From assembly GCA_003249095.1 (NCBI GenBank), contig QBMS01000002.1:6711-70710 (forward strand): a DNA stretch of 64,000 nt, read 5' to 3'. The first letter of the stretch is position 1. Every line of letters starts with the position of its first letter. Below the pieces are notes generated by a model that ran no database searches, was not told the origin of the DNA, and worked only from the letters and a program-made list of their open reading frames with translations. Source of the DNA: Snowella sp. (GTDB taxonomy: Bacteria > Cyanobacteriota > Cyanobacteriia > Cyanobacteriales > Microcystaceae). Below are positions 3,258 to 10,560 of this stretch, one piece after another. The position numbers were made by a program, and so were the translations under genes.

Positions 3258-4298
3258 CTATTTTTCGACAGATTCAAAGGTTTGATAGGCAAGTTCGGGA
3301 TGATAGAGATGGCAGCGATCGCTGATTTCTTTCATTAATGCCCAGGAAAATGTCCGTTGCTGTAAATAGGGGCCATAATTTTCTTTTAAGCTGGCATGGG
3401 CTTTGCGGAGATTATAGGAAGGAATGGCCACCGAAATGTGGTGGGGAATGTGAACATTAATATCGTGACAGAGAACTTCGACCCAACGAGGATAATCGCA
3501 ATGCACCGTTCCTGTGAGTTGGGCTTCTCCTGCTTTCCACTGATCGGCGGGTTTGAATTTAATTTCAGGAACCGTGTGGTGAACAATGGTAAAAGTACTC
3601 ATCCAGAAGTGATAGACCAACCAGGGCATGAGCCAAAATTTGACAAAGCCCCAAACACCAGTCGTAATAATCAATGTGGGAAACACAATAGCCCCAAAAA
3701 CCACTACCGTCGTGATCGACGTAATGACTTTCTGGCGATCGCGATCGGCAAAATTAGATAGCTTGAAGTGTAATAATGCCCAATGAAAAATTGAACCAAT
3801 CCACCACAAACGTCCCCGAATGGCGCGATAAAAAGCCCGAACAACAGGATGAGTTTGAGCATAAGCTTCAGGAGTCAAAGGATCCCAAGCATTATCAACT
3901 TCTAGCTTATTCGTGTGGAGATGGTGATAGTCGTGAAGAAGCCGCCAACAATGGAAGGGATAAATTAAGGGCAAGAAAGCAATATGACCCACCAAATCAT
4001 TGACCCAACGACGTTTCGCAAAGGAACGATGGCCACAATCATGGCCAATAACGAACCAACCCGTCAAAGCGGTTCCTGTAAAAATCCAGGTGAGAGGTAA
4101 ACAATACCAAGGCAGGTAAATAATACCGAGATAACCGATAATTGCCGTCACCACACTCAAGGCAACAAATGACCAAGCCTTAACTGGATTTTTCTCAAAA
4201 CAGTCACTTGGAAGACCTTTAATAATATCTTTGAGTTGAATATCGGCAATTTCGGACTCTTTCAACCCGTCGGCGAACTTTTCTGTCGTTGCAGTCAT
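3258..4298 (-). CDS. desA: Fatty acid desaturase (DesA-type, probable acyl-lipid delta-12)
   Basis: Histidine boxes 'GHDCGHRSF', 'HDYHHLHTN' and 'HIPHH'; 346 aa. Confidence 0.87.
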
Positions 4299-4941
4299 GA
4301 ATTGGATCTAATCTCCACAAGAGGATAACCAAACCTATGACAAGTCCACTCCCGAAAACTGTTCCTTCTTAGCGTACCAAGCCAGCAAAAGTGCTGATCC
4401 GCTACCCATTAGTCTGAATTTCTGAGTGAATTGTCAAAAGGATTAAAAATAATTTACAAACCTTAATAGTTATACCACGACAACGGTGCTTTCTTGCTGT
4501 AATGTTGGGTTGCTCCGACCTGAACTCCCATCAACTAGTTAGTCGTCATCGACTTTACCGTTGGAGAATTTTCCTTACGGAACCATTCGTCACTCAGTCA
4601 GAAAATTTGCAATTTTTTTTAATGCTTGCTCTCCCTAAGTGCGTAGGTAGAGGGCTGTCATGGACTCATAAGGGGTCAATCTTCTTAAGTGCGTAAGTAG
4701 TTGGTTCTCGCCTGCCATGAAATGTAAGGAAAAACAGACATCTTGCTCGTCAACAGACATGATTTTCGTTAGTCTATCCAAAGCTTTATTCTGATCATTT
4801 ACTTGCCAACCATCAGCCAATCTTGCTAAAAGCTTATGCTGTAAAGGTTGTAGGAGATATTTCCATCATCACCCAAGCCCTAAAACATCCTTGAAAAATG
4901 TTCGCAAAAGTGGCTCTGTTTTTTTCAAATAAATAAAAGTA

Positions 4942-5029
4942 CTTTAAAATCTCTTTAAAAATTCTTTAAAATTGCTTTAAAGATATTTTAAAAATTCTTT
5001 AAATACACTTTAAAAACTCTTTAAAAAAA
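4942..5029. repeat. Eight-copy 11-bp phased (C/T)TTTAAA array
   Basis: TTTAAA starts at 4943, 4954, 4965, 4976, 4987, 4998, 5009 and 5020, exactly 11 bp apart; seven of eight preceded by C. Confidence 0.92.
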
Positions 5030-5138
5030 ATGAGATCTTTTATCGTGATATCAGTTGAGCGAGTTATCGATAAGGGGGTTAAGCCTTTGTTTATAAGGAT
5101 TGAGTATATTTTTGGCATTTGAAAAGTATTATGGAGTC

Positions 5139-5173
5139 AAGATTTTTTAAAAGATTTTAATTTAAAAAATCTT
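5139..5173. repeat. 13-bp perfect inverted repeat with 9-nt spacer
   Basis: AAGATTTTTTAAA (5139-5151) and TTTAAAAAATCTT (5161-5173). Confidence 0.9.
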
Positions 5174-5414
5174 AAATTCTTCTTTACAAAGTCCTTGCAT
5201 TCAATTTCATTCTCCGTTATTGTACTGAGTGACTTGTATGGTTTGATACCGATATCCACATACAAAGTTCTCAGTACCCTTTAAACACTTAAGACTCAAC
5301 CTAGTTACGTTTAGAGTCAACTGCCCTCACCAGTGTCAGTGCTGATGCAATGTAAAAAATTTGAATCCTCTTATTTTCGAGTTTATAGATTAAGTTAGTT
5401 CATTCGCACGATTA

Positions 5415-6350
5415 ATGTTTTTGAGGTTCTTTATGTCTTGTTTTTCTCTAAATTCTAACTCAATTGTTCCAGCGAAGCTCCTTGCAACGGCAGGAATTTT
5501 GGCAACGGTTATTCAAGTTCTACCTGCTCAAGCAGCGAGTCTCAATTGGCAAACGGTTAAGGATAGTTCTTCTGCTTTTGCGGGTACGTTGGGCGCATCA
5601 AACACTATCAGTGTTAGCGGAGGAGGAACTGTTAATCTGGAATTGGGAACAATCACGGATATCAACAATGCCACACGAACATTAGGAACAGGTTCTCAGT
5701 TCGCCCTTGGCCCGAATGGCGCGCCTACACCCAGTATTGACCCCCTGTTAAATGGAACATTGCCAAATACTTCCCCCTCCCTCTATCTCCAACAGGATTC
5801 TGGTGCTGTCGCCAATGCGGTCTATGCAGGTTTTAAGTTCAACAATCCAGGCGGAGTAAGTGGATTAACCTTTACCCTGTTTGATATTGATAAGTCGAAT
5901 AATTCGTTAACGAGTAATAGCTGGCAAGACCGAGTAATTGTCCGAGGTTTATTCAATGGAGTGGCAGTTTTACCCACAACAGTTTCCGCCGTCAGTACTT
6001 TTGTTAGTGCTTCCACTGGGAACATCAGCATTAATGGAGTAGGTACGGGCTATGCGGAGGCCAATATCAGTGGAGCAACGGTTTTAGATGGGACTAAATC
6101 TGTAGATAATAGTTTATCGAATGATGGAAATGTGACGATTTCTTTTGCTGGGCCTGTCGATCAGCTTTATATTGACTTTACTCAAGCTCCAGGGGCAACT
6201 GGTTCTAACCCTGGTAGTCATGGTATCGGTATTGGCAATATGACCTATCAAGCTGTCCCCGAACCTCTGACCGTTTTAGGAGCGGCAACCGCGATCGCCT
6301 TTGGTACTGCTTTCAAACGACGCTCTACTCAATCAAAGAACAAAGAGTAG
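5415..6350 (+). CDS. PEP-CTERM sorting-domain secreted protein
   Basis: Signal peptide ending '..VLPAQAA'; C-terminus 'VPEPLTVLGAATAIAFGTAFKRRS' (VPEP + TM + basic tail). Confidence 0.9.
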   Translation: MFLRFFMSCFSLNSNSIVPAKLLATAGILATVIQVLPAQAASLNWQTVKDSSSAFAGTLGASNTISVSGGGTVNLELGTITDINNATRTLGTGSQFALGPNGAPTPSIDPLLNGTLPNTSPSLYLQQDSGAVANAVYAGFKFNNPGGVSGLTFTLFDIDKSNNSLTSNSWQDRVIVRGLFNGVAVLPTTVSAVSTFVSASTGNISINGVGTGYAEANISGATVLDGTKSVDNSLSNDGNVTISFAGPVDQLYIDFTQAPGATGSNPGSHGIGIGNMTYQAVPEPLTVLGAATAIAFGTAFKRRSTQSKNKE

Positions 6351-10441: not shown

Positions 10442-10462
10442 AAGGGTTACTTTTAGGCGGAA

Positions 10463-10560
10463 GTTTTGGGTGCAAGTGCAAGTTTTTGGTGCAACTACAA
10501 GTTTTGGGCGCAAGTAACAAGTTTTAGGCGCAAGTAACAAGTTTTGGGCGCAAGCCTTGC
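10463..10560. repeat. Five tandem 19-20-bp units (GTTTTgGGCGCAAGTaaCAA) ending in a GC-rich hairpin
   Basis: Units at 10463, 10482, 10501, 10521 and 10541; last unit continues into GGGCGCAAGCCTTGCGCCC. Confidence 0.85.

Follow-up and report, generated by a model that had tools for sequence, protein, structure and literature searches.

The 64,000-nucleotide stretch of Snowella sp. DNA analyzed here (the window) carries eight 11-bp units of the form (C/T)TTTAAA-N4 at positions 4942–5029 of the plus strand; pattern searches and shuffled sequences identify this array as a real, rare, and non-random element. Our best reading, to which we assign about even chances, is an unusually long multi-site operator array for a putative regulator of cell-surface genes.

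An array with an invariant core and free spacers

TTTAAA begins at 4943, 4954, 4965, 4976, 4987, 4998, 5009, and 5020, in exact 11-bp steps, and the intervening 4-nt spacers (atct, aatt, attg, gata, aatt, taca, aact, aaaa) match those listed in the sequence-only reading that first described the array. The base preceding TTTAAA is C in seven of the eight units and T in one. The same reading had held that the core is invariant while the spacers vary, and the counts bear this out: TTTAAA shows 0 differences in 48 positions vs. 12 in 32 for the spacers. With the first base included, the seven core columns of the window array contain 1/56 differences vs. 12/32 in the four spacer columns (Fisher p = 1.1e-5). 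A three-unit pattern allowing up to two mismatches matched seven times, vs. 0.10 expected. Dinucleotide shuffling of the 1.1-kb intergenic region (5,000 trials) gave 11-bp chains of two units at most, and shuffling of the surrounding 120 bp, which are very AT-rich, gave three at most (20,000 trials); the real chain is eight.

The main rival to an operator, unlikely in our estimation but deserving serious weight, is an AT-rich minisatellite without function, in which slippage within intergenic DNA multiplied an 11-bp unit whose copies then partly decayed. Neutral decay should spread differences evenly across the unit, whereas those in the window array concentrate in the spacers.

Genomic setting of the array

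The array lies within a divergent intergenic region of ~1.1 kb (4299–5414), bounded by a DesA-like fatty-acid desaturase gene on the minus strand (3258–4298; PF00487) and a PEP-CTERM sorting-domain protein gene on the plus strand (5415–6350, starting at 5415 or 5433; TIGR04155, 44.4 bits), the presumed target; the list of open reading frames and the two domain matches confirm this arrangement, which had been proposed from the sequence. The PEP-CTERM gene probably uses a sigma70 promoter, TTGCAT-N17-TATTGT, at 5195–5223 (plus strand). This assignment comes from comparison by eye with G004, which has the closest orthologue recovered (64% identity) and carries the counterpart TTGCAT-N17-TAATAT upstream of it; the window element scores under the threshold of a consensus scan. 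Because ~170 bp separate the array from the likely −35 element downstream of it, an earlier suggestion that it acts as an upstream promoter element is unsupported in the sense of a classical UP element, and the distance is also far for a classical operator. The upstream region of the G004 orthologue has no array, just two TTTAAA hexamers 14 bp apart, an absence that favors the minisatellite and counts against the operator reading. Comparison of the array region with Rfam returned no family over threshold, and an RNA element was rejected on this basis.

Related arrays in the same genome

The 4.6-Mb genome was searched with a three-unit CTTTAAA pattern (≤3/21 mismatches), and background was drawn from a 400-kb sample together with pattern searches of the genome. 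Seven array loci were recovered, plus two weak sites: the window array (C160) and six more of the same type in shorter rows (C44, C48, C70, C165, C166, and C217), so that the window array is not an isolated oddity. No four-unit window in the 400-kb sample exceeded 20/28 at 11-bp spacing; the arrays score 24–28.

Three of these arrays (C44, C48, and C160) each lie upstream of a different PEP-CTERM gene (p ~3e-6, a post hoc value that assumes ~20 PEP-CTERM genes in the genome). The C48 array, with three units, lies ~500 bp upstream of its gene, and the C48 and C160 proteins have little in common except the sorting tail. The C166 and C217 arrays are found ~45 bp upstream of two paralogous genes (50% identity) for proteins of 60–76 aa (L123:3340–3570 and L122:3287–3469, the latter on the minus strand); their N-termini are signal-peptide-like, and the one of the two scanned had no Pfam match. 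C70 precedes the gene for a 179-aa secreted-looking protein that is probably exported, and C165 is found at the 5′ end of an ORF of 966 aa adjoining a W_rich_C gene. This proximity to exported-protein genes is consistent with an operator and counts against a functionless repeat. The minisatellite explanation, in turn, draws support from C165, which consists of five near-perfect copies and fits a plain repeat, and from C44, which includes a duplicated 22-bp unit.

Pooling the arrays other than that of the window gave 13/246 core vs. 42/164 spacer differences (p = 5e-9), a comparison biased by the choice of units on their core match; the same bias applies to the count of C at position 1 in 36/39 pooled units. 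Position 7 is A in 34/39.

Two features of these loci argue against the operator reading: the distance from array to start codon varies from about 45 to 500 bp, and orientation is mixed, with four arrays running CTTTAAA toward the gene and the others away from it. Arrays aside, the upstream regions show no clear homology except for a 15-bp sequence, CATATACTTAAGTAA, shared by C44 and C48 and located just before the start codon of these two array-bearing PEP-CTERM genes (L105 about 1800; L106 about 850). A frameshift or stop seems to interrupt the gene downstream of the C44 array (L105:776–1723, minus strand). An array is lacking upstream of most PEP-CTERM genes in the genome—a further point against the operator reading—and PEP-CTERM loci fetched from relatives fell below the array threshold; a general PEP-CTERM upstream signature is rejected on these grounds.

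Arrays in other genomes

At least four exact units were found in 3 of 391 genomes of the order. Across 84,980 species, a search for four C-first units returned 18 stretches, most of them simple repeats whose spacers do not vary. These sporadic tandem repeats in unrelated taxa, several of which fit a plain repeat, speak for a minisatellite. One of the three genomes of the order (G256), from another family, carries the C70 array and ~85 bp downstream of it at 93% identity, without the gene. The shared segment of array and leader (L131:1501–1640) spans 129 bp, and it possibly reached G256 by horizontal transfer.

In another genus of the same family, two genomes (G019 and G303) share an orthologous pilin-like gene with a four-unit array ~500 bp upstream. 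Over the 540-bp upstream region, conservation between these genomes is highest at the array (82% in 60 bp, vs. 56% overall and up to 65% in windows at the CRP-type site). Their upstream neighbors differ, indicating that the array is tied to the pilin-like gene. In a third species (G030), exactly 11 bp of this array, or one unit, is missing. Conservation above the surroundings is a footprint-type pattern that speaks for an operator and against a minisatellite; the whole-unit difference also fits an operator, but slippage would predict it as well. The sequence-only reading had proposed conservation in relatives as a check, and the outcome is divided: no array precedes the nearest orthologue found for the PEP-CTERM gene in the window, yet arrays of the same type do occur in a few related genomes.

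The upstream region of the pilin-like gene also carries a CRP-type site, TGTGATCCAGATCACA, the same sequence that PMC2633013 gives for slr0442 of PCC 6803; on the basis of this identity, the gene is probably slr0442-like. No CRP-type site was found near the arrays of the Snowella genome, and such a site was rejected as a partner of the array. A short array-like stretch with 11-bp spacing was observed in G283 (L181:1517–1617), ~50–100 bp upstream of a gene for a CRP-family transcription factor.

Comparison with known operators

Direct repeats of ~11 bp with a conserved half-site and variable linker, as found here, are typical of OmpR/PhoB-family operators, and we infer this family of regulators from the array layout. 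In the window array, a directional core of ~7 bp and a variable 4 bp follow one another head-to-tail at exactly 11 bp. Among them, the ArcA operators of E. coli contain 2–5 direct repeats, mostly 11 bp and sometimes 22 bp apart center to center (PMC3798270); they differ in repeat sequence, in organism, and in number, with eight in the window array. The PmrA box pairs TTAA hexamers (CTTAAG/XTTAAT) 5 bp apart, giving the same 11-bp pitch with head-to-tail binding (PMC3973317), but it has only two half-sites and a different consensus.

The closest cyanobacterial counterpart is the Pho box bound by SphR/PhoB, built of 8+3 bp repeats with a TTAA core: at least three head-to-tail repeats at an 11-bp pitch with variable linkers (PMC1906773, PMC11126600). 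Were the array a variant of this box, an explanation we judge quite improbable, its gene would belong to the phosphate-starvation regulon. Beyond the shared pitch and core, TTTAAA does appear in some of the Pho boxes predicted for other species (PMC1906773), and an exported RTX protein cluster is under PhoB in Synechocystis (PMC11126600). However, the Pho box consensus CTTAACCT (YTTAAYYW), in 2–4 repeats, does not describe the eight (C/T)TTTAAA units, whose position 7 is predominantly A where Pho boxes have a pyrimidine. In the Snowella genome itself, the pst promoters have repeats of the CTTAACC(A/G) type, the standard Pho box form, which disfavors an SphR Pho box.

CarH operators also consist of direct repeats of 11 bp, three or four in tandem (PMC9304148), and the array could in principle serve a CarH/MerR-type regulator. 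The CarH repeat is TnnACA, though, with a C that the TTTAAA core lacks, and these operators overlap the −35 or −10 element (PMC9304148); with the pitch alike and the sequence not, we consider such a regulator highly improbable.

Structure ALTERNATIVES: curvature, flexibility, and periodicity

Helically phased curved DNA, another of the original suggestions, found no support: the predicted bend of the array is 39 degrees vs. a shuffle mean of 38.5 (sd 20), and TTTAAA is TpA-centered. The wedge model used was checked on A4T4 (132 degrees) vs. T4A4 (9 degrees), which it separates. Since the modeled bend does not exceed that of shuffled sequence, intrinsically curved, phased A-tract DNA is rejected at the level of this model.

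TpA steps are flexible, and the array may instead act through DNA mechanics, as a flexible, easily unwound, or supercoil-responsive element without a dedicated protein. An 11-bp period of AT-rich motifs, including class A flexible patterns, is known from bacterial and cyanobacterial DNA (PMC4132750, PMC1242344), and the present genome shows the usual 11-bp AT periodicity. That periodicity is genome-wide and loose, whereas the array is local, strict, intergenic, and TpA-centered; in cyanobacteria TpA contributes least, and strongly periodic species are so mainly in coding sequence (PMC4132750). Because the strict TTTAAA arrays lie far outside the 400-kb background, genome-wide periodicity is rejected as the whole explanation. 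A structural role, moreover, needs no invariant TTTAAA preceded by C, and together with the unremarkable predicted bend this leaves a purely mechanical element improbable.

A candidate operator for surface-protein genes

Among the functions first suggested for the array, a cooperative protein-binding array is the best supported, by evidence that is indirect: the constraint on core and phase in several arrays, their rarity and exported-protein neighbors, the footprint at a related locus, and the match to known operator layouts. The protein would be a transcription factor that recognizes direct repeats of 11 bp; the likeliest candidate is a response regulator of the OmpR/PhoB family, but not SphR. 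One DNA-binding domain would occupy each (C/T)TTTAAA half-site, with neighboring domains helically in register and touching head-to-tail, so that the eight half-sites could act cooperatively and give dose-sensitive occupancy. Occupancy may in turn control the PEP-CTERM surface-protein gene and possibly the divergent desaturase gene too. Response-regulator control of PEP-CTERM genes has a precedent in Desulfovibrio (PMC3333781). A broader proposal, which we offer as speculative and rather unlikely, is a cyanobacterial surface-gene regulon comprising PEP-CTERM, small exported, and pilin-like proteins, in which one putative regulator assembles on long 11-bp arrays, and the evolution of their length by entire 11-bp units would serve to tune the dose.

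In Nostoc, motility and biofilm formation depend on the exosortase (PMC12188702), yet the control of PEP-CTERM/exosortase surface proteins in cyanobacteria is poorly characterized. Should the array prove to be an operator, it would offer bait for the regulator. It would also provide an eight-site example, beyond the 2–5 repeats of ArcA, for studying how repeat number sets cooperativity.

Two other repeats were observed in the window. An imperfect 16-bp direct repeat (CTAAGTGCGTAGGTAG / TTAAGTGCGTAAGTAG, ~50 bp apart) occurs at 4634–4700, in the intergenic region of the array itself, and a tandem 20-mer, AAGTTTTGGGCGCAAGTAAC, is present in 4.8 copies at 10461–10554, directly after a peptide-binding-protein-like gene.
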